Of a stretch of 57,510 nucleotides of DNA, positions 12,650-43,453 are shown piece by piece. The notes under the pieces were generated by a model, which was not told the origin of the DNA, made no database searches, and worked only from the letters and a program-made list of their open reading frames with translations. The stretch's first letter is position 1. Each line of letters begins with the position of its first letter. Both the position numbers and the translations under genes were made by a program. The DNA lies in the NCBI GenBank assembly GCA_947485745.1, contig CANKQY010000006.1, positions 1 through 57,510 of the forward strand. The letters are read 5' to 3'. This stretch comes from Bacteroidota bacterium. Its GTDB lineage: Bacteria; Bacteroidota; Bacteroidia; UKL13-3.

Positions 12650-14518
12650 ATGAAAAAACTCTTGTCACTCAAATTTTTATTATTTCTTTTAGCACTTATT
12701 TGGTTCAGCAACAGCGGTGCTCAAAATCCTTGCAATGCCACTTGGACAAAACAAAAAGATCCAAATTCTGCCTTAAAATATTATTTCATGGCTAACTTAA
12801 ACGACACCAATTATAGATACATATGGACTTTTGGTGATGGAACGGGATCAGATGCTAGGGTTACCTTTCACACCTTTCCGCATACTGGTGCTTATATTGT
12901 TTGTTTAAAGGTGACCAAAAAAGATACAACTTGCACCCAAACCTTCTGCGATACGATTGTTTTTGGCTCGAACATAACTTGTAATGCAGCTTGGACAAAA
13001 CAAAAAGATCCTGCAATTACCTTGAAATATTATTTCTCGGCAACGCTAAACGATACCAATTATAGATACTTATGGACCTTTGGAGATGGAACAGGATCAG
13101 ATGCTAGGTTAACTTTCCGTAACTATGCACATACAGGTAAATATTATGTTTGTTTAAAGGTAATGAAGAAAGATTCTAGTTGCCAGCAAACAAAATGTGA
13201 TAGCATCAAGGTAGGTACAATTTGCACCGCATCTTTCACTAGAATTGCCAGCAATACTTTGGCTCGAACCTACAGTTTTGAAGCCAATACCAGTGATACT
13301 AATTATATTTACAAATATACATTTGGTGATGGGTCTGCAGCTACTTATGGTAGGTTCAAAACACATACTTATGCAAATAATGGCACTTATACTGTTTGCC
13401 TAACTGTAACAAGAAAGGATTCTAGTTGTGCAGAAACGCAATGCCAAACCATCAAAATTGATACACATTCTCCCTGCAATGCAAATTTTAATATTATTAA
13501 AAGTGATAGTATTGGATCAAATCCTCATTATGTAAGATTTGCAGACGTATCTCCAGGCACTCATACTAGATGTGTTTATAACTTTGGAGATGGAACTTCT
13601 TCCGACAATTGTAATCCAATTCATTACTTTGCTTCTTTGGATTCAAAAACTATTTGTTTAACCATATACAATATTAACAGCAACAAAGACACACTTTGTA
13701 AAAGCACCACTTGCAAAACCTTTAATACAGGCAATAATAAATCAATTACTTGCGTAGCTGTTTTTGATTATGAGCGCATTGGTACCAGTAGTAATTACCG
13801 TTTTATCAATCATTCACTTGGTAGTCCTTTACAATACCGTTGGGTATTTGATGGCGGAGCACCCGTTACTACCACTAATGCGGAGCATAATTTTGTAACA
13901 CCCGGCTTGCACCTTGCCTGCCTTTATGTTGTAAATACATTAGATACCAATTGCAGCAGTTCATTTTGTGTAAATATTTTATTTCCTGGAAATGTAACCC
14001 AACAACAATGTAATGCTGATTATTCATATACACCAGATGCCACAAACCCGGGCAATTTTGAATTCACTAGCTTTTCAGGTTCAGGTGTTATCAATAATTG
14101 GAATTTCGGAGATGGCTCATATAGCAACGATGAAAGTGGGCAACATACTTATTTGCAAAATGGCACCTATAGTGTTTGTTTAAGTGTATTAAATAGCATT
14201 GATTCTTGTTCGGATATGCATTGCGATTCTATTGTGGTGAGTAATGCAACTGGTGTAAAAACAAACCAGATATCCATTGGTTCAATTTATCCTATTCCAG
14301 TGGAACAGGTTTTACAAATAGATCTTCAAAGTAAAATTTCTCAGCCTGCTTGCTTGCGGTTAATAGATGTAACTGGTAAAATTATTTTTGAAGAAAACAC
14401 TCAACTACAAAAAGGTATTAACCCGTTAAAACTCGACATGGTGCAATATCCTCAAGGAATTTACTTATTGCAAATACAAAGTGGCAACGAGCAAATTGTT
14501 CGAAAGATTGTTAAATAA
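12650..14518 (+). CDS. Secreted PKD-repeat protein with T9SS type A sorting domain
   Basis: A 622-aa exported protein. Signal peptide at residues 1-25 (ends SGAQ), then six PKD-like beta-sandwich repeats of about 83 aa, each with an FGDG(T) or equivalent motif and conserved Cys pairs (CNATW, CNAAW, CTASF, CNANF, CVAVF, CNADY as repeat starts). Repeats 1 and 2 are near-duplicates. The last 80 residues (LIDVTGKIIFEE through IVRKIVK) form a type A sorting domain that would be removed on T9SS export, leaving the protein at the cell surface. No enzymatic domain is visible; an adhesive or structural role is an inference. Confidence 0.88.
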   Translation: MKKLLSLKFLLFLLALIWFSNSGAQNPCNATWTKQKDPNSALKYYFMANLNDTNYRYIWTFGDGTGSDARVTFHTFPHTGAYIVCLKVTKKDTTCTQTFCDTIVFGSNITCNAAWTKQKDPAITLKYYFSATLNDTNYRYLWTFGDGTGSDARLTFRNYAHTGKYYVCLKVMKKDSSCQQTKCDSIKVGTICTASFTRIASNTLARTYSFEANTSDTNYIYKYTFGDGSAATYGRFKTHTYANNGTYTVCLTVTRKDSSCAETQCQTIKIDTHSPCNANFNIIKSDSIGSNPHYVRFADVSPGTHTRCVYNFGDGTSSDNCNPIHYFASLDSKTICLTIYNINSNKDTLCKSTTCKTFNTGNNKSITCVAVFDYERIGTSSNYRFINHSLGSPLQYRWVFDGGAPVTTTNAEHNFVTPGLHLACLYVVNTLDTNCSSSFCVNILFPGNVTQQQCNADYSYTPDATNPGNFEFTSFSGSGVINNWNFGDGSYSNDESGQHTYLQNGTYSVCLSVLNSIDSCSDMHCDSIVVSNATGVKTNQISIGSIYPIPVEQVLQIDLQSKISQPACLRLIDVTGKIIFEENTQLQKGINPLKLDMVQYPQGIYLLQIQSGNEQIVRKIVK

Positions 14519-21014: not shown

Positions 21015-21413
21015 TTATTTTGGCAATTGCAGCGCTATTTCATCGGCAATGGCTGCCATTTCTTCATTAGTAAACACCAACTTTGGGTTGGCAAAATTCA
21101 TCTCTTCCAAATTAGAAAATGGTATCAAATGAATGTGCGCATGCGGCACTTCTAATCCCATCACACACACGCCAACTCGTATACAAGGCACTGCTTTTTT
21201 AATACCCTCGGCAACTATCTTAGAAAATAAATGTAATCCAGCAAATTCGGTTTGATCCAAATCAAAAATGTAATCAACTTCCTTTTTAGGGATGACTAAA
21301 GTGTGCCCTTTGGTAAGTGGACGTATATCTAGAAAGGCTAAAAATTCAGAAGTTTCTGCAACTTTAAAACAAGGTATTTCTCCATTGATTATTTTGGTAA
21401 AAATACTTGGCAT
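21015..21413 (-). CDS. HIT-family (HINT-like) nucleotide hydrolase
   Basis: A 132-aa histidine-triad protein: PHAHIHLIPF (His91, His93, His95) preceded by GLEVP, and the N-terminal SIFTKIINGEIPCFKV typical of Hint/HinT proteins, which hydrolyse nucleoside phosphoramidates and related adenylylated compounds. Only the first of the usual zinc-binding Cys/His positions is suggested. It is 3 bp downstream of greA, which implies a shared transcript. Confidence 0.93.
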   Translation of the reverse strand: MPSIFTKIINGEIPCFKVAETSEFLAFLDIRPLTKGHTLVIPKKEVDYIFDLDQTEFAGLHLFSKIVAEGIKKAVPCIRVGVCVMGLEVPHAHIHLIPFSNLEEMNFANPKLVFTNEEMAAIADEIALQLPK

Positions 21414-21416
21414 AAA

Positions 21417-21890
21417 TTATAAGGTTATTTCTAAAACTTCCAATTTGATTTGACCTGCAGGCACCATCACATCACAAAACTCCCCTACTTTTTTATTCAT
21501 CAAACCCAGTCCAATAGGCGATTTAAAGGATATCTTACCCGACTTAAGGTCTGCTTCTTTTTCATTAACCAAAGTGTACCAGATTTCTTTTTTTGAATTG
21601 TGATTGAGTACACGCACCCTTGTAAGCATCATTACCTTGCTAGTATTTAATTTGGTTTCATCAATGATTCTTGAAACAGAAACTAAATTTTCCATTTTTG
21701 AAATCTTCGCTTCCAATAAACCTTGATCTTCTTTGGCTGCATGGTATTCTGCATTTTCACTTAAATCTCCTTTATCTCTTGCATCGGCAATTTGCTTAGT
21801 TATAAAAGGACGTTGAACCTTTTTAAGATCGTTTAATTCGGCTTTCAATTTCTCTAAACCTTCTTTGGTTACAAAATTAATATCTGACAT
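21417..21890 (-). CDS. greA: Transcription elongation factor GreA
   Basis: A 157-aa GreA that stimulates transcript cleavage by backtracked RNA polymerase. The N-terminal coiled-coil has the conserved tip region (IADARDKGDLSENAEYHAAKEDQ, about residues 33-55) with its acidic Asp/Glu pair, and the C-terminal FKBP-like domain has the SPIGLGLMNKKVGE block. Length is typical. It precedes the HIT gene by 3 bp. Upstream there is a hairpin that could be either the end of the PorV unit or part of the greA leader. Confidence 0.96.
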   Translation of the reverse strand: MSDINFVTKEGLEKLKAELNDLKKVQRPFITKQIADARDKGDLSENAEYHAAKEDQGLLEAKISKMENLVSVSRIIDETKLNTSKVMMLTRVRVLNHNSKKEIWYTLVNEKEADLKSGKISFKSPIGLGLMNKKVGEFCDVMVPAGQIKLEVLEITL

Positions 21891-21916: not shown

Positions 21917-21954
21917 AAAATAAAAGAAACGTTTAGCACGAGGCCAAACGTTCC
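21917..21954 (-). terminator. Terminator between porV-family gene and greA
   Basis: On the minus strand, GGAACGTTTGGC pairs over 12 bp (two G-U) with GCTAAACGTTTC around a 5-nt loop (CTCGT) and is followed by TTTTATTTT. It should end the receptor/secreted-protein/PorV transcript. A TATATTTG box just upstream (21966-21973) leaves open that it also lies in the greA leader. Confidence 0.8.
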
Positions 21955-21980
21955 TTAATTAGTTTCAAATATAGTAATTT

Positions 21981-23111
21981 TTATCCCTTTTTACCTCCTA
22001 CGGTTAACCTTATTCCCAAGGTATGCATTCCATTAAAAATACGAGTTGGCGCATAAGAATAATCAATTGCCATTGCTGTACCATTTTTAGATATTGGCAA
22101 CTGAAAAGTTACACCAGTCCATAACCCATAAATGGGATCTAGGTATTGAGGATCACTCATGTTTTTGCTGAATGGTTGCGCATCATTGGTGTAGTTATAA
22201 GCAACTCTCAACATGGCCATTTCTTTGTAAGCGTATTCAAACCCTAAGCCATAAACATTAGATTGAAAGGCATTATAATTAAAGTTAAATGAACCTGTTA
22301 AACGGTGGAAATAAGTATCAGCTGATTTGTCTAAGCGCATATCATAACCTAAACCGATATTTACTAGAGTAGGTAAATTAAATTTATCGCCAGCGAAATA
22401 AGCTTTTCTATCTGCACCAGTAGCCGCATTAATAGAACGGAAAGAAAGTCCAGGACCAGAATACGTTAAATCTGGACCAATGTTTCTCATAGAAATACCT
22501 ATTCTAAAATCTTCCTTTTTAATCTTATTGCTTTGTTTCTTTGGGTTCAAAGAAGTTTGGTATTGAATACCAAAATCAAAGGCCACACCGGTGGCTTTTA
22601 CGTCTTGTAAACCCTCAGAAATAATTCTCAATAAAAATCCACCAGTAATACTATTTGAGAATTTTTTTGCATAAGCAGCACCAACGTTTAACACAACAGG
22701 ACTAAAAGTTGGCAAGGTGCCGTTAGGGTTATCAAAGGTTGTAATTGGAATACTTCCAAAATCCCATGAAGCAAAACCCAAACCAATAACTCCACCATCG
22801 CCATTTTCACCTAATACTTGGGAAAATCCAAAGTTATTTATGTTTACACCTGCGCCTTGCAAATAACTCATTCTTGAGAAAACCACCTCGGTTTTTTTAG
22901 AGTAAGCTAATCCTGCTATATTTAAATTAAAGGCTTCAATTCCTCTTACTGATGCAGTGTTTGTTCCTCCGTATCCAGAACTTCTGGCATAAGGATTAAC
23001 ATTTAATTGTGTTACCCCAGCTCCACCAGAACGCTCTGGATTGCCCGCGTAGGAATTACCTGCCAACGCTAGCATCCCAAGTAAACCAAATTTTATAATA
23101 TCTTTCTTCAT
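21981..23111 (-). CDS. PorV/PorQ-family outer-membrane protein
   Basis: A 376-aa outer-membrane beta-barrel with signal peptide (residues 1-22, NSYAG). The N-terminal mature part (LNVNPYARSSGYGGTNTASVRGIEAFNLNIAGLAY) matches the region where PorV proteins carry their conserved asymmetry motif (DARAGGMGDA in classical PorV), and the rest is FadL-like strands (for example VIGLGFASWDFGSIPI). PorV shuttles T9SS cargo to the attachment complex. It is not next to porU, so it may be a dedicated paralogue for the large secreted protein encoded 35 bp upstream. Whether it is the genome's main PorV cannot be told here. Confidence 0.78.
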   Translation of the reverse strand: MKKDIIKFGLLGMLALAGNSYAGNPERSGGAGVTQLNVNPYARSSGYGGTNTASVRGIEAFNLNIAGLAYSKKTEVVFSRMSYLQGAGVNINNFGFSQVLGENGDGGVIGLGFASWDFGSIPITTFDNPNGTLPTFSPVVLNVGAAYAKKFSNSITGGFLLRIISEGLQDVKATGVAFDFGIQYQTSLNPKKQSNKIKKEDFRIGISMRNIGPDLTYSGPGLSFRSINAATGADRKAYFAGDKFNLPTLVNIGLGYDMRLDKSADTYFHRLTGSFNFNYNAFQSNVYGLGFEYAYKEMAMLRVAYNYTNDAQPFSKNMSDPQYLDPIYGLWTGVTFQLPISKNGTAMAIDYSYAPTRIFNGMHTLGIRLTVGGKKG

Positions 23112-23146
23112 TTTAATATGATTTCAAAGTTTGAGTGAATATTAAT

Positions 23147-26100
23147 TTAGAATGTATCAAAATCGGCAGGACGAATAATCCCAAACCATTTAACAACTCT
23201 TTCTCCAATTCCGTCTGCATAAATATGAACCAAATAAACTCCACTTGCAATTGGCACTTTAGCATCATTTTTCAAATCCCAATCCAAATAGGTATTTACA
23301 TCATCATCCTTCTTAATTCTTCTAACCAAAAATCCACTTTGGGTATAGATTGAAATAACACATTTTTGGGGAAGGTTAATGATTTTAACGCGTTGATCCA
23401 ATTGATTACCTGGATCTTCATATCCAGCATACGCATAATAAGGATTTGGTGAAACAGCTACCATATCGAGGGCAGTTTTACCAGCCTGCTTCTCACCTAT
23501 AGTTGGCGAAATGCCCGTTGTAGAGAAAGAATATAATGGTAATCCTTTATTCAAAATAGTATCAGTGGCAGATAAATTTAAGCTAGCATAAGGACGTTTC
23601 ACGTTGATGTTAATCCTAACGTCGCAAGGGATACCTCCATTAGTTGTGTTATCACCTAAGAATGTTTTTGGCGAAACCAAAGTCATACTCACCCACATAG
23701 CCTGAGAATATAATTTACGCATATTCAAAGTAACACTCTGCACTGCCTCAATTTTGTTAAGCAAATCAGTATAGCTAACACCTTCATCATAACGAGGTCC
23801 GGCATATTGAATCGGACCTGTAGGGCTTGTACGGAAATCTTTAGAGCCCATTACGTAGATGTGGTGCTTACCTCCAAATATATAATTTAACCCACCTAAA
23901 GTTCCCGAAACCAATGTGCTAGTAGGATTCCAAATCATATCCGCTCCATTTTCTAACGGCAATGAAGAGTCTTCAGCAAACATGATGTTTAAGCGCTCTC
24001 CAGTTTCCTTATTAATTGCGTAACCAGGGAACCAACCTTTTCCAAAGCCATCGCCATCTGGTTTACCATCTTTGCCAACTGAAGGAGATTTTCTTCTTTG
24101 CATTTTTATAGCTCCACCAATATTTAATGATGTATTTTCTCCCGCTTCAATTACTACGCATCTCGACCAATATCTCTTATCTGGTGTAATGAATACAGAA
24201 ACACTTCTTAAGTCTGTTAAAGGATTGTCTGTTGAATATCCTCCAGTACCTGCAGACCAAGCTGGACCATAAGTTGGGGTTGGGGTTATAACCCTTGCGC
24301 ACAATGAATAAGGAGCCCAAGTTCCATCTATCACCTTGTTATATTGCCTTCTAGGATCAATTGGTGACTTATTGGCATCTGCAAAATCATGCTCGTAAGG
24401 ATTTGCAAAATTTGGTGTGCCTGTATTACCGGCTCTAATCCAATTAAAAGGCACCTGGGATCCAATCTCATCTGGAACTCCTACTAACCACCTATTATTC
24501 GGATTACTGAATTCAATGGATGATGAAATATAACCATTTGCATCATCCGTTTCATTTGTAGGATCACCAGGAGCTATAGGTTGATTAATATTAACGCTCA
24601 AGCCCATATCTTCAAATACTTGCTCGTTTGGTGTACCAATGGTTTTTTCACTAAATGCTACCTGAACACAATTTGCTGTACCAGAATACCTATACTTATT
24701 CGAATTTACAGTTACAAACTCATTTGCATATTGTACCGTGTCATATGGCGTTAAATCTGAAGCATCAATAATTTTTATTTTTACATAACCATCCAATAAC
24801 CTGTAGGATGAATTATTCTTAAAATCAGCTATGGTTGTTGGTTTAATATTTTCCAATATCCAAATAGTGCTGTCTTTTGTTAAGCTATCTCTTTTTACAG
24901 TTGATTTAGAATTATCAATTAATTTTAATTCAAAGTCTGCTTTTGGAACCTTAAAGGGATCTATTACCTTAATGATAACCGGACCCTTAGATTTCTCATA
25001 AGTAGGTGTTGGAACAAAATAAGGAGCTATTAAAGCTTTTTCAATTGTAGCTTGAGACAAAGTAATTGCGTTTCCACCATTTCCAATACCTTCTAATTTG
25101 GTAATTTCTGGTCCATCACCCCAGGCAGCGTTTAATACGGTTCCTTGCTGATGAGGAGTAGCTTTGTGTGGTATTCCTGTCCAAACTGCAATTGCCGTTC
25201 CGTCTATCATTTTACGACCTGCCAAATATTGAGTAGCTTCATCTACGCAATTGGTAGCACTGGCATAAGCAACTAGGTAGAAATAATAACTCTGGAAGTT
25301 AACCAATGATTGATCCGATAATTTTGAAAATACGTCCTTGCTAATTTTAAAACTATGAATAATGCCTTTATCACTGCCATTAACCATAATCTTTTTAACA
25401 CTGCCAAGGTCCGCATCGTTTACAATATTTACAATCTTTGAATTTCCATCCTGAACATCACACTGAGCAATTTCAACTGCCTCGTCTAAATTATATAAAT
25501 TACTTGGCGCAGAGTTTTTCTTTAATTGAAATATTTGATACCCTTGAAATTTATATTTAGTTTTACTTGAACACAAACCTGCAGATGAATCCGAATAATT
25601 CTCGGTAACATTGTAATTTACTATGTTAAGTATAATTTCTTGATCCAATTCAACTATTTCTAACTTTGGAACCCTAGGTCCATCAACTATATTAAAGTTA
25701 TTTTTGTATAGCACATAAGCTTTATCAGATGCTTCTTTTAACAAATTGAATGATCCGGTTGCACCTCCGGTGGTACCCCTTGCCCATACAACAGCTACAG
25801 TTACTTGATTTTTTGATCCTGGTAACAAACTAAATGAACCTGCAGTTTGTAAAAACCTTCTATCCCCAGGGTTATTTCCAGCGATTCTTTCTGTCCAATC
25901 TGCTCTACCAGATGGGTCTGTTTTTCCAGGAAACATAAAGCTAGCAGTATCAGAACCTCCTCTACCATTGCCTCCATAAGAAATATTTAAACCATCTTTC
26001 CATCTTCCATTCAAGTAATTCCAGTAATGCTCTGGTCTACTTGGATTTCCTGTTACCGAAAAGTCGTTGTTATAATACACAAACTTGGTTAGGCCAATTT

Positions 26101-27142
26101 CTGAGGTATCATTTCCAACAATTCTTTGTGGTCCTTCAAAAAAATTCACACCAACACTAGGTGGGTTCAAACCGTAACCCAAAATACCCTCATCATTGTC
26201 ATCACCATTATAACATATACCCAAATTTCTTTTCACATCACACTCCACATAATCATCCGAATAATTACCCAAGTCGGCATCTACCCATTGACCAAACACA
26301 CAGCTATCAATTGTTTCGGAACTACGGTTAAAAATAGTAGTTCTATAAAATGTCATGTTATTAATTTCATCGTTGGTAGCGTAAGCAAAACTTTGGGTAT
26401 GTAATTCCAATCCAATAGGCAAACCCTCAGTTTCTGAGTGAATATTTCCTTTGTCATTATAAATGGTAAATAACATCATATCTGGGATATTAGTTATTAC
26501 GTTTTGGTCAAAGGTTGGAAAGTCTCCATCTGTAGTTTGATAATCTCCATCGTTATTACTATCATAAAAAGGAGCTAGGAATGCTGCTTCACCGAGCACC
26601 TTATCGCCATTTCCAGGCCAAGTCTTAATTGCCTCAATTGGATTTGCTTTGTCATCATTACTTTGAAACTCTTCAATTTCAGCTAAGGTTACTTTCCAAA
26701 TTTTATCATAATACTTGCACCTGTCGGCAGAAATAGAAGCATTTGCAATTTGTAAAGCACCTGGGTAATAATCACTACCACTTTGGCGATAAGTTTGTGC
26801 CGCAATCTTCAAGTTACCTTGAGTAATTCCACCAATCCACAATGCACCAGAAAATAGCGAGTGCTTTTTAGTTTGGCCAGTTTCTACTTTTGGAATTTCG
26901 TAACGTGCATTTTGCAAATTCCACCACATATCACCACCGTTTAAAATAACGGTACGTACATTGTTTAAATCCAAATCTTTTTGTTGGGTAGCTTGAGCAC
27001 ATCCAGCTCCTTTTTTTAATAAGGTTGATTTAGCAGTTTTTTGCAAACCAATATTCTCCTCTGCAAAACCTTGAAAGCCTATTAAAACTAAGCTTATTGC
27101 AAGAAAAGTGTATTTCAAAAAATAATTATTTTTCTTTTTCAT
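23147..27142 (-). CDS. Giant secreted protein with T9SS-like C-terminal domain
   Basis: A 1331-aa protein with signal peptide (about 1-27). The N-terminal region has the family block NVRTVILNGGDMWWNL and GALWIGG (62-105), followed by AAQTYRQSGSDYYPG (114-128). A Ca-binding-like, dockerin-type loop (FYDSNNDGDYQTTDGDFP, 192-209) follows. The last 90 residues contain the SPNPYYAY and the PIASGVYLVHIYADG pattern of a T9SS sorting domain, but end in WFGIIRPADFDTF rather than the usual basic tail. Related proteins occur widely in Bacteroidota without assigned function. It sits between a TonB-dependent receptor and a PorV-family gene on one transcript. Confidence 0.85.
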   Translation of the reverse strand: MKKKNNYFLKYTFLAISLVLIGFQGFAEENIGLQKTAKSTLLKKGAGCAQATQQKDLDLNNVRTVILNGGDMWWNLQNARYEIPKVETGQTKKHSLFSGALWIGGITQGNLKIAAQTYRQSGSDYYPGALQIANASISADRCKYYDKIWKVTLAEIEEFQSNDDKANPIEAIKTWPGNGDKVLGEAAFLAPFYDSNNDGDYQTTDGDFPTFDQNVITNIPDMMLFTIYNDKGNIHSETEGLPIGLELHTQSFAYATNDEINNMTFYRTTIFNRSSETIDSCVFGQWVDADLGNYSDDYVECDVKRNLGICYNGDDNDEGILGYGLNPPSVGVNFFEGPQRIVGNDTSEIGLTKFVYYNNDFSVTGNPSRPEHYWNYLNGRWKDGLNISYGGNGRGGSDTASFMFPGKTDPSGRADWTERIAGNNPGDRRFLQTAGSFSLLPGSKNQVTVAVVWARGTTGGATGSFNLLKEASDKAYVLYKNNFNIVDGPRVPKLEIVELDQEIILNIVNYNVTENYSDSSAGLCSSKTKYKFQGYQIFQLKKNSAPSNLYNLDEAVEIAQCDVQDGNSKIVNIVNDADLGSVKKIMVNGSDKGIIHSFKISKDVFSKLSDQSLVNFQSYYFYLVAYASATNCVDEATQYLAGRKMIDGTAIAVWTGIPHKATPHQQGTVLNAAWGDGPEITKLEGIGNGGNAITLSQATIEKALIAPYFVPTPTYEKSKGPVIIKVIDPFKVPKADFELKLIDNSKSTVKRDSLTKDSTIWILENIKPTTIADFKNNSSYRLLDGYVKIKIIDASDLTPYDTVQYANEFVTVNSNKYRYSGTANCVQVAFSEKTIGTPNEQVFEDMGLSVNINQPIAPGDPTNETDDANGYISSSIEFSNPNNRWLVGVPDEIGSQVPFNWIRAGNTGTPNFANPYEHDFADANKSPIDPRRQYNKVIDGTWAPYSLCARVITPTPTYGPAWSAGTGGYSTDNPLTDLRSVSVFITPDKRYWSRCVVIEAGENTSLNIGGAIKMQRRKSPSVGKDGKPDGDGFGKGWFPGYAINKETGERLNIMFAEDSSLPLENGADMIWNPTSTLVSGTLGGLNYIFGGKHHIYVMGSKDFRTSPTGPIQYAGPRYDEGVSYTDLLNKIEAVQSVTLNMRKLYSQAMWVSMTLVSPKTFLGDNTTNGGIPCDVRININVKRPYASLNLSATDTILNKGLPLYSFSTTGISPTIGEKQAGKTALDMVAVSPNPYYAYAGYEDPGNQLDQRVKIINLPQKCVISIYTQSGFLVRRIKKDDDVNTYLDWDLKNDAKVPIASGVYLVHIYADGIGERVVKWFGIIRPADFDTF

Positions 27143-27175
27143 TGTCGTTTTCTTTAATAAAGTAATTAAATTAAT

Positions 27176-30100
27176 CTAGAAATATAAGGCCATTCCTAAA
27201 CGTACAATTCTTGGTGGAGCAAACCTATCTGGATTGATCATTCTCAAATTGTATAGGTCAATGTATGATTGCTGATTGGTTGCAACTTCTTTTTGTTCCT
27301 GTGAAGCCGGGGAGGCTAAGAAACCATCGTTGTATGCAGAACCAGTATACCTATATACCGAAGTAACATTAGCTGTATTTAATAAGTTTTGAACCATTAT
27401 GAATGCACGTAATCTATACATGGTGGTGCTTCCATCAATTTTCTTTTTCTTGAAAATAAAGTTTTTGTCAACGTTTAAATCTAAATTAAACTGTGCTGGC
27501 AAATTTGCTCCGTTTGGCGTTCCTTTAATCGGGCTTCTTACCACAACACCAGATTGAACACCTCCAGGAGTTGGGTTCAAATCTTGGGTGTAAGGGCGAC
27601 CAGAATAAGCAGTAAATGCTAAATTGAAACCGGCATTTTCAAAAATCTTTTTACCGTTTACAATCGGGCCATTATAATCTTTTCCTTCTTTGTAATGGTA
27701 ATCAAAAATAGTTTTTAAGGTATGGCGTGTGTCAAAATCCATTGGTGTTAGCGTACGTAATGACGGCAAACCAACTGAGATTAATGCCGCACTGGTATTT
27801 GGATTGGAACCAGTACCATCAGCAAACATCAACTGATAATTAGCTGTAATAGTAACATTACCTAAATCTCTTACTGTATATTCTAAACCAATACTTTTTA
27901 CAGTTGAAAAGTCTAAATTACCATAGGTGGTATAATCATTTGGCCACGACTGCACATATTGATACAATTGCGTCATATTTCTAATTTCACTGTAAGAAGC
28001 AATAATTGCCAAAGCTGCATCTTGACCAATTTGCTGACGGAAACCAATTTCATAATCCGTTTTGGTTTGCATTTTCAAATCAGGATTTGCAATGGCAGAA
28101 CCTTGGCGATTTTGCAAAAAGAAATAGTCATCAATTTGTCCAACGTTTGCATTAGGTCTTTGAGCCAAGATATCATAAGTACCAAAAAATTGCGAGGTAG
28201 TTGATATTGGGAATGAGAACCAAATACGTGGCAATAATTTAAGGTCGGGCTTGTAATCTGTAAAAGAGGCCGAAGTTGGTAAATTAGGATTTTTAGGATC
28301 AACTAAAATTGGTGTATTCCTATTTGTTTTTGCTTCTGATTTAATTTGAGATGGGTCGGTTATAGGGTTGCCATTTTTATCATACCATTTGGTTCCATCG
28401 CGGTAACCATAAATCTTTGATCCTGATAACCCAGCAGTTTGTTGATTTGCATCTTTATCTATATAAGGAATAAATTTATCTCCAATGGTAGTTGGTATAT
28501 TTGAAGGATCGATACCCATAGTTCCGGCTCTTACCTCCCCAACTGTATATACTGGCACAACTGAATAAGGATCTTTCAATACAGGTTGGTTTGCATCAAA
28601 ACGCTCCAAACGAACACCCACCCTTACAATTAAATCTTTGAAAACAAACTTATCCTGAACCCAAGCCGCAAAATAAGTTGGCTGATAAGCCGGCAAAGCA
28701 CGCTTAGTTGGATCATTCAAGAAATCATCAATAGTAGAACGCTTCCTTTGAACTTTACCCAAATGGTTGTATCCAGAATAACTTACAAATGAACTACCAT
28801 TGTTTAACAATTCACCTGCATTAAACATATCCAAAGAATAATCTGTAGGCTTGTAAGAGTTCACATCTAAAAAAGAATATTGGTCAATTGGTTTACCATA
28901 GGCATCTACCGCACCTTGGGCCATTAATTTGTCACGTAAATTCTTGTCGAAATTTGTTTGATCATTTATTACTATTTTTCTTTTAAAATTTACGGTATCA
29001 GAAAATACACCATTCTCATCAAATTTTAACTCATAATTACCACTATCCAATCCGGAAAACTGGCGATTGACATTTAAACGCATTAAACTCCATAGGCCAG
29101 TAGCGCCTAAACCATAATTTCTTCTAAATTGTTGTTCAAGGTTTAAGCCAACCTGAAATTCATGTTTTGCTTTAGGATTGCTTTTTGGTGCAACACTAAA
29201 CTCACTTTGAACATACAAATTGAATGTTTCTGATAAACTTTTGCTATACCCAGCTTGTTGCTGCCCAACATTACCCCACATATTTGAGTATATTCCATTG
29301 GGTGCATCACCATTAATTAATCCTCCAACCTGACGAACAGCGCCAGGATTTCTTAATGCATTTGAGCCAAAATAATCGTAAACAGCTTTGGTGTAATTAC
29401 CGCGTGTTTGATTTGCATTATCGGCTTGGTCATAAGTATAAAGGGTATCTCGGTATCCAACATGACGGTAATAGTCATTTAAATAAAGTGGATTGTTTTT
29501 ATCGCCTCCTATATAAAAGGTATCTTGAGCTTGATTAAAACCTTTAATAACACGGCTATATACAGGGGCAGTATAAGTTGTAAACTTTCCGATGTAACCA
29601 TAATCAAAAAAATCTCTTTGGAAATCTGCATCCATGGATTCGCCAAAGCCTCTTTCATAAGATAACCTTACGGTATAATAGGCATTACTGATATTTGATG
29701 CTTTTTTATTTGCTTCTTCATCCTTTTTATCAGACTTAAATGTTTGTGTAAATTGAAAATAGGTTCTTGCAGTATATCCTCTTGAAAAACCGTTTTTCTC
29801 AGGTCCAAGCAATGAATGAAAAGTATTATTTCCCCTACCTTGATTGTAATTACCATAATATCCCATGCGCACATTGATATTATTGGTTGGTTGAAAATTG
29901 AAGTTACCATTTATGTCCACATTGGTGCTATAAACATTCTGGCGAACGTTGATTTTTTGAAGGTCGTTGGCAGTAATGTATTCAGCTGCTGGAAACAATG
30001 TTCCCAATGCTCCTGGCACCAAAGGCTTTTCCTTAATTTCCTTTAATTTATCATCATTTACTTTGTATAAATCTATTACAGAAATACTTTTTCCATAGGT

Positions 30101-30961
30101 AAGTGAGCCAGATAATAGAAAACCTAATAATACTTTCTCCTCGTTGCCTCTACCTTTATTAATGGTTTTAATAGGACCAGAAACATATCCTTGAAATTGG
30201 TTGTATTGGCTATTGTCTAAATAGCCTGTAAAAGGTGAGGCGCTGGTAAATTCAAAGCCTCTAGAAAAGTTTTTAGTTGGAGCTTTGGTTGTGATACTAA
30301 TGGCACCACCCACAAAGTCGCCATATTGTGCTGGCGTACCTCCTGTGATTACTTGAATTTGATCAATGGCATTGGCAGGAATATTGGTAGCACCAGCTTG
30401 AACGCGAACCCCATCAATATAATAGGCTGTACCATCGGCACGCGCACCTCTAAAGTTAGGAGTTGCACCATTTCTACCTTCAACACCTAAAGATAAACCA
30501 GCAATACTATTCACACTCCTGGTTCCCAGTGCAAGTATTTCCTTATTGGTAACAACGTTTCCTTTAACCCCACCTGGATCAACCAACTGCTTTTTGAAGG
30601 TAACTACATATTCCTTTAAAGTAGTACCATCAGTTGATGGTTCCATGCTAAAGTTTACAAAACGATCCTCCTCTGGCGCAACATTAATTCCTTTAATAAC
30701 AGAATTGCCGTAACCAACAAAAGAAGCATACAGATCATATTCTCCAGGTTGTAAGGTTTTAATTACATAACCTCCCTCATCATCTGTAAGCGCGGTAGCC
30801 TTAGTTACACCATTTAATTTAATGGTAATACTCACATAATCCATGGCTTTCTTGGTTTTGGCATCTTTAATTGTACCACGTATGGTACCCATGCCCGATT
30901 GAGCGTGTAGCACAAATTGAAAGCCAAAAAGAACAGCTAATAGTATGTATATTTTCTTCAT
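27176..30961 (-). CDS. TonB-dependent receptor with carboxypeptidase-regulatory-like domain
   Basis: Outer-membrane TonB-dependent receptor of 1261 aa. Signal peptide at 1-20; a CarboxypepD_reg-like domain at 25-108 (TIRGTIKDAKTKKAMDYVSI, FVGYGNSVIKG); a plug domain at about 130-228 (NGATPNFRGARADGTAYYIDGVRV, ITGGTPAQYGDFVGGAISI); then a beta-barrel ending PRIVRLGMALYF with the aromatic terminal residue typical of outer-membrane proteins. It is larger than most SusC-type receptors and has no SusD partner. The downstream genes are a giant exported protein and a PorV-like protein. Substrate is unknown. Confidence 0.9.
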   Translation of the reverse strand: MKKIYILLAVLFGFQFVLHAQSGMGTIRGTIKDAKTKKAMDYVSITIKLNGVTKATALTDDEGGYVIKTLQPGEYDLYASFVGYGNSVIKGINVAPEEDRFVNFSMEPSTDGTTLKEYVVTFKKQLVDPGGVKGNVVTNKEILALGTRSVNSIAGLSLGVEGRNGATPNFRGARADGTAYYIDGVRVQAGATNIPANAIDQIQVITGGTPAQYGDFVGGAISITTKAPTKNFSRGFEFTSASPFTGYLDNSQYNQFQGYVSGPIKTINKGRGNEEKVLLGFLLSGSLTYGKSISVIDLYKVNDDKLKEIKEKPLVPGALGTLFPAAEYITANDLQKINVRQNVYSTNVDINGNFNFQPTNNINVRMGYYGNYNQGRGNNTFHSLLGPEKNGFSRGYTARTYFQFTQTFKSDKKDEEANKKASNISNAYYTVRLSYERGFGESMDADFQRDFFDYGYIGKFTTYTAPVYSRVIKGFNQAQDTFYIGGDKNNPLYLNDYYRHVGYRDTLYTYDQADNANQTRGNYTKAVYDYFGSNALRNPGAVRQVGGLINGDAPNGIYSNMWGNVGQQQAGYSKSLSETFNLYVQSEFSVAPKSNPKAKHEFQVGLNLEQQFRRNYGLGATGLWSLMRLNVNRQFSGLDSGNYELKFDENGVFSDTVNFKRKIVINDQTNFDKNLRDKLMAQGAVDAYGKPIDQYSFLDVNSYKPTDYSLDMFNAGELLNNGSSFVSYSGYNHLGKVQRKRSTIDDFLNDPTKRALPAYQPTYFAAWVQDKFVFKDLIVRVGVRLERFDANQPVLKDPYSVVPVYTVGEVRAGTMGIDPSNIPTTIGDKFIPYIDKDANQQTAGLSGSKIYGYRDGTKWYDKNGNPITDPSQIKSEAKTNRNTPILVDPKNPNLPTSASFTDYKPDLKLLPRIWFSFPISTTSQFFGTYDILAQRPNANVGQIDDYFFLQNRQGSAIANPDLKMQTKTDYEIGFRQQIGQDAALAIIASYSEIRNMTQLYQYVQSWPNDYTTYGNLDFSTVKSIGLEYTVRDLGNVTITANYQLMFADGTGSNPNTSAALISVGLPSLRTLTPMDFDTRHTLKTIFDYHYKEGKDYNGPIVNGKKIFENAGFNLAFTAYSGRPYTQDLNPTPGGVQSGVVVRSPIKGTPNGANLPAQFNLDLNVDKNFIFKKKKIDGSTTMYRLRAFIMVQNLLNTANVTSVYRYTGSAYNDGFLASPASQEQKEVATNQQSYIDLYNLRMINPDRFAPPRIVRLGMALYF

Positions 30962-42034: not shown

Positions 42035-43453
42035 CTACTTATGAAGAACCATTAATTTCTTGGTAATTTTAGAACGGCCAAAATCAAACTCCACATAATA
42101 AGTGCCATTTTCAAAACCACTTACATCCAATTTATAATAGCTTGCATTTACCTCAGCTGTAAATACTTCTTTTCCATTATCGGTAAGCACTTTAATTTTA
42201 TTAAATGGCCATGTTTTAATTTCAGTATAGTCGGAAGCCGGGTTAGGAACCAAGTTTGTATTTCTATTTAACCTACCCTCAAACTCTTTTAAATTTGCAG
42301 GGTTCACATCATTGAATAAATATTGATAAGCCTGAGCAAATTCACGTTTCCAATACCATTCACTATGCGCACCATCGGCATGTATAATTACTGAGGAATT
42401 GTATGCTAAAAATCCTTTGCGCCTAAGCATATCATCATATTTATTGATGTTACTTACCATAGTAGCACTTTCATTTGAACCAGCAACATAATAGGCCAAA
42501 ATTCCAGGATCGATTGCAGCCTTTTGAGCAAAATCGTATAATGAATCACTGATATACAAAGCAGGTGAAAATAAACCTACTTTACCAAATACCTGTGGAT
42601 TTGATAAAGCAGCGAATAGCGAAATATTAGCCCCTAAAGAACTTCCTGCTATAGCAGTGTGCTTTGGATCGGAGTAGGTTCTATAAACAGAATCAATAAA
42701 TGGCTTCAAGGTTTGAGCCAAAAAATTTACATACGCTTTACCCTCTCCACTTCCATATTGAGGGTGCCCGTAAGGACTATATTCATTGATACGCTTTACC
42801 CCACCATTATCAATACCTACTATTATACACCCCAAATCACCTGATTTTTCTAATTTCACCAACGATTCATCTACGCCCCATTCGCCAGAAAAAGAGGTTT
42901 TGGCATCAAACAAATTCTGCCCGTCTTGCATGTACATCACAGGATATCTTTTGGTGGTTGTATTTTTGTAATCAGATGGCAGATAAATCCATACTCTCCT
43001 GCTCCTATTTAACTGAGGCATGTAAAATGAATTGGAGATTATTGAAACATTGTTAAGCGCTGTAGAACCTGTATCTGCCGGACTATTCAGCAAATCTATC
43101 CATCCCGCAATATTGTTTTCAATGCTTAAATTTGCACTATAGGTAAAAGTTCTATTGGCAATATTTGCGCCAGCACTAGTTGATTCAACTTTTGGCCAAC
43201 TACCCCGAGTAAATTTATATTGGGCTTCACCATTTCTGCTTGGCAAGGTAATAGTATAGCTTGAGCCTGTTTTAACAAGTTTATACGTCGCATCACCTGG
43301 GTTCCAATTATTGAAATCCCCTGCAATATAAATATCATCTGAAATTGGCGTATTGGCTGGTAAATTATTAACAGTAATGGTAACTTGTGCAAATGAAACC
43401 TGCATGAATAATGACATAAAAACAAGTTGAAACCCTAATAATTTATTTTTCAT
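42035..43453 (-). CDS. Secreted esterase with N-terminal CBM48/E-set-like domain and T9SS tail
   Basis: A 472-aa exported multidomain protein. Signal peptide at 1-22; an N-terminal immunoglobulin-like domain of carbohydrate-binding type (IYIAGDFNNWNPGDATYKL, YKFTRGSW); an esterase D-like alpha/beta hydrolase with RYPVMYMQDGQNLF, the nucleophile in AGSSLGANISL and a probable catalytic His in HADGAHSEWYW; and a C-terminal T9SS sorting domain (NPASDYTEI to ITKKLMVLHK). It is a paralogue of the esterase at 16.3-17.2 kb, with extra domains. Carbohydrate-ester hydrolysis on the cell surface is an inference. It diverges from the redoxin gene. Confidence 0.86.
   Translation of the reverse strand: MKNKLLGFQLVFMSLFMQVSFAQVTITVNNLPANTPISDDIYIAGDFNNWNPGDATYKLVKTGSSYTITLPSRNGEAQYKFTRGSWPKVESTSAGANIANRTFTYSANLSIENNIAGWIDLLNSPADTGSTALNNVSIISNSFYMPQLNRSRRVWIYLPSDYKNTTTKRYPVMYMQDGQNLFDAKTSFSGEWGVDESLVKLEKSGDLGCIIVGIDNGGVKRINEYSPYGHPQYGSGEGKAYVNFLAQTLKPFIDSVYRTYSDPKHTAIAGSSLGANISLFAALSNPQVFGKVGLFSPALYISDSLYDFAQKAAIDPGILAYYVAGSNESATMVSNINKYDDMLRRKGFLAYNSSVIIHADGAHSEWYWKREFAQAYQYLFNDVNPANLKEFEGRLNRNTNLVPNPASDYTEIKTWPFNKIKVLTDNGKEVFTAEVNASYYKLDVSGFENGTYYVEFDFGRSKITKKLMVLHK

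Follow-up and report, generated by a model that had tools for sequence, protein, structure and literature searches.

What is the function of a gene unit that joins a TonB-dependent receptor (TBDT) to a very large exported protein and a PorV-type barrel? Three such genes lie one behind the other on the minus strand of the window, that is, the whole 57,510-nucleotide stretch of Bacteroidota DNA analysed here, in the order TBDT, 1331-aa exported protein, PorV/PorQ-family outer-membrane barrel. A first-pass annotation had described three minus-strand genes separated by 33 and 35 bp, and the coordinates of the open reading frames agree. Below, we refer to the exported protein as the giant, to the barrel as PorVx, and to the three together as the trio. 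With a probability of nearly 0.6 in our estimate, the trio constitutes a single outer-membrane TBDT importer, whose T9SS-delivered surface 'lid' would be moored on a dedicated PorV-type barrel. The features of the locus are as follows:

27176..30961, minus strand: first gene, TonB-dependent receptor, 1261 aa; signal peptide, carboxypeptidase-regulatory-like extension, plug, barrel ending in Phe
23147..27142, minus strand: second gene, the giant, exported protein of 1331 aa; signal peptide with no lipobox at its end
24833..27079, minus strand: N-terminal half of the giant, residues 22-770, beta-rich (AlphaFold, Foldseek)
23150..24661, minus strand: C-terminal half of the giant, residues 828-1331, C-terminal domain (CTD) included (AlphaFold, Foldseek)
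23150..23449, minus strand: T9SS-type CTD of the giant, approximately residues 1232-1331; W-D/N motif of uncleaved CTDs, conserved end KWFGxxRPxDxxTF
21981..23111, minus strand: third gene, PorVx, PorV/PorQ-family outer-membrane barrel of 376 aa; conserved mature N-terminus GNxxRxGxxGxxxLxxNPxARS
21924..21956, minus strand: putative intrinsic terminator 3′ of the barrel gene; stem of 14 pairs, then T-rich sequence
21417-21890, minus strand: greA, downstream neighbour in conserved order
21015-21413, minus strand: HIT-family gene, downstream neighbour in conserved order

The first protein carries the CarboxypepD_reg and Plug domains of Pfam (Plug E 8e-10), which identify it as a TonB-dependent receptor; the PF00593 barrel was matched in three of five receptor orthologues, but not in the window receptor itself. 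No match to the SusC/RagA model TIGR04056 (cut-off 368 bits) was obtained for the window receptor, and two receptors of more distant trios (see below) reach 66-74 bits against this model, from their N-termini only. Receptor orthologues of other families align over their full length (634-735 bits), the next paralogue in the window's own genome scores 94 bits through its N-terminal part only, and a sequence search of the PDB with the receptor found nothing.

At the other end of the unit, greA and the HIT-family gene probably lie outside the function of the trio. A terminator had been placed between them and the barrel gene (at 21917-21954, as closing the unit): a 14-pair stem with T-rich sequence 3′ of it is indeed present at 21956-21924 of the minus strand, but terminator-like sites are no commoner in the real sequence than in shuffles, and a terminator 3′ of the PorVx gene is plausible, not proven. 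Elsewhere in the window, an ordinary T9SS cargo is encoded at 12650-14518 (plus strand): it contains PKD repeats and a T9SS sorting domain that is clearly of type A (E 2e-11). A further protein, of 472 aa and encoded at 42035-43453 (minus strand), also carries a type A CTD, with a low score of 28 bits.

Conservation of the trio

Relatives of the giant occur in 91 of 98 genomes; in nearly every family sampled, the best-matching loci hold receptor, giant, barrel, greA and HIT gene in succession. At all 51 loci of Bacteroidia families with three complete genes, the trio is consecutive, on one strand and in the order TBDT-giant-barrel, with intergenic gaps of -140 to 164 bp, the negative values resulting partly from the choice of the longest open reading frame. 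A collection of named genomes, whose loci come from MAGs labelled Chitinophagales, Flavobacteriales, Bacteroidales, among others, yielded the full trio at 67 of the best 80 loci; the other 13 comprise eight loci cut by contig ends and five stand-alone giants. With a further 20 of 20 loci outside Bacteroidia (see below), the three families show a conserved order in Bacteroidota, and the objection that they might rarely be adjacent in other genomes did not hold: the trio is conserved in order across most Bacteroidota lineages sampled, and not by chance.

Do the three families also come and go together? Strong matches to the C-terminal half of the giant (E <=1e-80) were found in about 197 of 247 Bacteroidia genomes; SprA is present in 240 of these 247, which makes co-occurrence with the T9SS a weak test. 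Searching 20 genomes with a PorVx profile, we found distant paralogues only (best E 1e-18 or weaker) in the 14 that lack a strong giant match and PorVx in the four that have a giant, the remaining two being genomes with PorVx and a weak giant match, at a contig end. The receptor orthologue, sought in four giant-less genomes, gave a best score of 42 bits. Across these searches, the three families are co-present and co-absent.

Within Bacteroidia, conserved order alone is no proof of a complex, because greA and the HIT gene have been kept adjoining equally well. This neighbourhood speaks for an inherited operon of separate, co-expressed outer-membrane proteins that form no single complex. Of the alternatives to an importer we deem this the least probable, since in other classes the trio stays intact without a greA neighbour and exists in many paralogous copies per genome. 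There, in many genomes of other Bacteroidota classes, a profile of the C-terminal half of the giant detects between one and at least 13 proteins each, mostly via the CTD alone, with no more than 13 candidates scored in a genome. Twenty such loci were chosen solely by their match to the giant C-terminus and read in six frames; receptor, CTD protein and PorV-family barrel followed each other in this order and on one strand at 20 of 20, and the N-terminal profile of the giant matched 18 of the 20 as well (E 2e-54 to 1e-169). These other trios, in their different surroundings, rule out a module restricted to the vicinity of greA.

Second giants follow a pattern of their own. Where a genome encodes two giants, one belongs to a trio and the other stands alone, or else the genes form a receptor-giant-barrel-giant array; co-duplication of all three genes was not seen in Bacteroidia, the second giants standing alone. 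Stand-alone giants with the same C-terminal end and no adjoining receptor or barrel lie at loci L212, L214, L215, L217, L219, L221, L223, L077 and L097, and the genomes that bear stand-alone giants also carry the trio, where checked. At L226 (genome G166, contig C40), the order is receptor-giant-barrel-giant-greA, with a tandem second giant and neither a second receptor nor a second barrel.

Giants without a receptor would fit a structural or adhesive surface protein, which receptor and barrel only help to place and through which nothing is imported. The giant is, moreover, large and beta-rich, and adhesins are often exported by the T9SS (PMC9143113). Such a role leaves it unexplained, however, that a specific, full-length receptor orthologue is conserved with the giant and that even outside Bacteroidia the receptor gene still comes before that of the giant. 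We judge an adhesin improbable, if less so than an inherited operon, and return to the TBDT importer with a moored lid after considering how the giant may be held at the cell surface.

The C-terminus of the giant and its PorV-type barrel

Is the giant an ordinary T9SS cargo? Pfam returned no match for the 1331-aa protein, and hence neither SusD/RagB (PF07980) nor a sortase domain, and the sequence at the end of its signal peptide lacks a lipobox. The C-terminus of the giant aligns with the final part of the PorZ model (E 7e-6); against the type A CTD model TIGR04183 it scores 13.2 bits, below the 23-bit cut-off. Among 35 giant relatives, the PorZ model was matched in 35, TIGR04183 in 26 and the PorU model in 14 (E <=0.01). 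AlphaFold was run on each half of the giant separately, from alignments of orthologues. For the C-terminal half (mean pLDDT 77.8), the best PDB match by Foldseek was PorZ (E 1.3e-7), with further matches to the CTDs of RemZ (TM 0.75 by target length) and NucA (0.68), both of them CTDs seen in SprA-PorV complexes, and to PorU. As modelled, the giant C-terminus has the fold of a T9SS CTD, an Ig-like beta-sandwich, which agrees with the earlier description of a large protein with a T9SS-like C-terminal domain. The giant also has a C-terminal extension past the usual CTD end, and this extension is strictly kept.

Not all such domains are removed at the surface: the CTD of PorU stays on PorV and that of PorZ on PorQ, and cognate PorV-like barrels have been proposed to shield CTDs from cleavage (PMC10202324). 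Uncleaved CTDs are longer and have an extra hairpin in common (PMC11285876). We ran a profile of the giant CTD on the CTDs of PorU, PorZ, PorU2 and cargo; as the first 30 cargo CTDs were the most consensus-like, 20 low-scoring cargo CTDs were added as a fairer control. Among 51 CTDs of the window's own genome, PorU took rank 1, PorU2 rank 2 and PorZ rank 3. The motif W[DN][GLM] is present in 57 of 58 giants and 16 of 16 PorU, PorZ and PorU2 proteins, as compared to one of 48 cargo CTDs, and its wider form, W[DNR][GLMAC], in all 20 distant CTD proteins. Profile rank and motif place the giant CTD not with those of ordinary cargo but in one group with the CTDs of PorU, PorZ and PorU2, which are uncleaved and barrel-bound. 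The giant as an ordinary cleaved cargo is disfavoured by this CTD class.

The first-pass annotation had called the PorV-like protein a carrier. This word is probably wrong: the CTDs that the giant CTD resembles, those of PorU and PorZ, do not leave their respective barrels, and by analogy PorVx would more likely serve as a lasting dock than as a shuttle. Alternatively, the PorU/PorZ-like CTD of the giant could reflect ancestry and not retention.

What kind of barrel, then, is PorVx? It matches the PorV/PorQ family model NF033709 with 118.4 bits, above the cut-off of 90, but reaches only 52.1 bits against the PorV equivalog NF033710, far below the cut-off of 250, and 50.3 bits against PorQ (NF033711, cut-off 220); no match to PorV2 (NF052325, cut-off 325) was listed. 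The same genome holds six PorV-family matches: according to NCBIfam, the canonical PorV (479 bits), adjoining porU on contig C16, PorQ (328 bits, contig C72) and PorV2 (431 bits, contig C60); an unnamed group on contig C27; PorVx itself; and a weak match on contig C51. Because of the canonical porU-porV pair on C16, PorVx is not the general PorV of the genome, and that role was ruled out. As had been claimed, the PorV-like protein is a separate paralogue that does not adjoin porU, and the objection that it might be the sole general PorV did not hold. In a maximum-likelihood tree, PorVx and the barrels of distant trios form one clade (98/97), with PorV, PorQ and PorV2 each in separate clades. 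Eighteen of the 20 distant-trio barrels fall into the PorVx clade; those of two loci, L337 and L338, group with the C27 barrels. The T9SS of this genome comprises SprA, PorU, PorV, PorQ, PorV2 and PorZ, accompanied by about 110 type A CTD matches.

Could barrel and giant instead be an accessory T9SS attachment or sorting complex, with the receptor energising or recycling components for secretion and no role in feeding? The CTD class just described, with PorU, PorZ and PorU2 as its nearest relatives, and the descent of PorVx from the same family as PorV would both suit such a module, as would the fact that the sampled Bacteroidia have one copy each, next to housekeeping genes. A precedent for the gene pair also exists: in four genomes (G067, contig C7; G086, C10; G178, C1; G252, C17), PorV2 lies beside genes of about 1700 codons with a PorZ-tail CTD, which we take as PorU2. 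NCBI models already name PorU2 and PorV2; none names PorVx or the giant. Yet in other classes a genome may hold several such CTD proteins, or as many as 13 and more, which suits many ligands better than a secretion component; two loci (L337 and L338) lie among carbohydrate genes, and the T9SS works without the trio in many SprA-positive genomes. We therefore regard a secretion module as unlikely, albeit the likeliest of the three alternatives weighed here.

A candidate importer and its relation to known systems

How might a TBDT importer with a barrel-moored lid operate? The giant would be exported by the Sec pathway and then by the T9SS, would keep its CTD and would remain docked on PorVx at the surface, as PorU does on PorV and PorZ on PorQ. 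In contact with the TBDT, over or beside it, the giant would capture a ligand for import by the receptor; for some copies at least, this ligand is probably glycan-like. The trio would be a counterpart of SusCD, in which a T9SS protein and a barrel replace the SusD lipoprotein. We favour this reading because of the conserved gene order, the joint presence and absence of the three families, the CTD class, the separate barrel clade, the T9SS of the genome, the carbohydrate loci and the SusD counts taken together; contact between the proteins, retention of the CTD, import and ligand are inferred.

As to the carbohydrate loci, the neighbours of L337 encode two proteins with GH16 domains and a pair of MFS transporters, of which one is a sugar transporter; next to L338 lie a LacI-type regulator and an alpha-amylase-domain protein. 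At the other distant loci, judged from their open reading frames alone, no carbohydrate context was seen. SusD proteins (PF07980) number 6-41 in six Bacteroidia that lack the module; of the genomes checked that carry the trio, one has 7 and the others 0-3. Over 35 genomes, SusD counts and CTD-protein copies are negatively correlated (Spearman -0.59), a relation confounded by phylogeny and by the choice of genomes. The N-terminal half of the giant (mean pLDDT 84.1, beta-rich) resembles the beta-supersandwich regions of GH116, GH94 and GH15 in a partial and weak match (Foldseek E ~1e-6, TM only 0.24), a hint, and no more, that its modelled fold is of a carbohydrate type; a PDB sequence search with this half found nothing. 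Counting against an importer are the weakness of that match, the housekeeping genes that surround the window trio, and the giants that stand alone without receptor or barrel.

Cysteines at residues 48, 142 and 301 of the giant are invariant across 37 orthologues. The window's own genome also encodes a contig-cut protein (L010:1-1803, contig C109), whose later part resembles giant residues 57-261 at 38% identity and whose preceding N-terminal region differs from the giant.

The trio is reminiscent of SusC-SusD in several respects: a TBDT gene lies directly 5′ of a gene for a surface protein, the receptor bears a carboxypeptidase-regulatory-like extension, and some genomes hold many paralogous copies, some of these among carbohydrate genes. 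In contrast, the window receptor has no SusC match, the giant is not a SusD, has no lipobox and carries a T9SS CTD instead, and the trio adds a PorV-type barrel as its third member. A plain SusCD pair was ruled out by the missing SusC and SusD matches.

Similarly, PorU-PorV, PorZ-PorQ and PorU2-PorV2 each combine, like the giant and PorVx, an exported protein of the uncleaved CTD class with a PorV-family barrel, and porU-porV and porU2-porV2 are likewise adjacent genes. The giant differs from PorU, PorZ and PorU2 in that no sortase domain was matched in it and that it is not a PorZ, PorVx falls outside the clades of PorV, PorQ and PorV2, and a TonB receptor is the constant partner of the trio. 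A third parallel is offered by type B CTD proteins, which are anchored uncleaved by dedicated FadL-type PorP/SprF barrels (PMC9143113, PMC10202324); in SprB-SprF and PG1035-PorP, too, a T9SS protein is clustered with its own FadL-type barrel. Here, however, the giant CTD is closer to type A, the barrel is of the PorV family, and a TonB receptor is added. The components of the trio are thus known families, and their union is not described in the literature searched: as the first-pass annotation had supposed, no published function for the arrangement was found, the open-access papers searched containing no description of it, nor of PorU2 or PorV2.

More tentatively, and at somewhat less than even odds, the trio may represent a class of TonB-driven importers that spans the phylum alongside SusCD, each with a CTD-retaining T9SS lid and a dedicated PorV-type barrel. 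The class would have multiplied in some of the classes in which SusD proteins are few or absent, whereas many Bacteroidia would retain a single core copy. If this were so, a single machine would unite nutrient uptake with T9SS secretion, and beside SusD there would be a second principle for a lid. It would explain why several PorV paralogues are kept in these genomes and would make the proposal that cognate PorV-like barrels protect CTDs (PMC10202324) directly testable. A large set of unnamed exported proteins of about 1000-1300 aa, of which a genome may hold at least 13, would gain a function class, and lineages with few or no SusD proteins would gain candidate uptake systems.

A second cluster of similar shape, with a PorV-family barrel of the C27 group, lies at L312:3810-13977 (genome G252, contig C19). 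It comprises a T9SS protein with a W-motif CTD, a T9SS cargo, a probable lipoprotein, a TonB receptor, the barrel and a protein resembling NHL-repeat lipoproteins; counterparts are scattered in the window's genome (L012:6764-9021 and L016:1756-3894).
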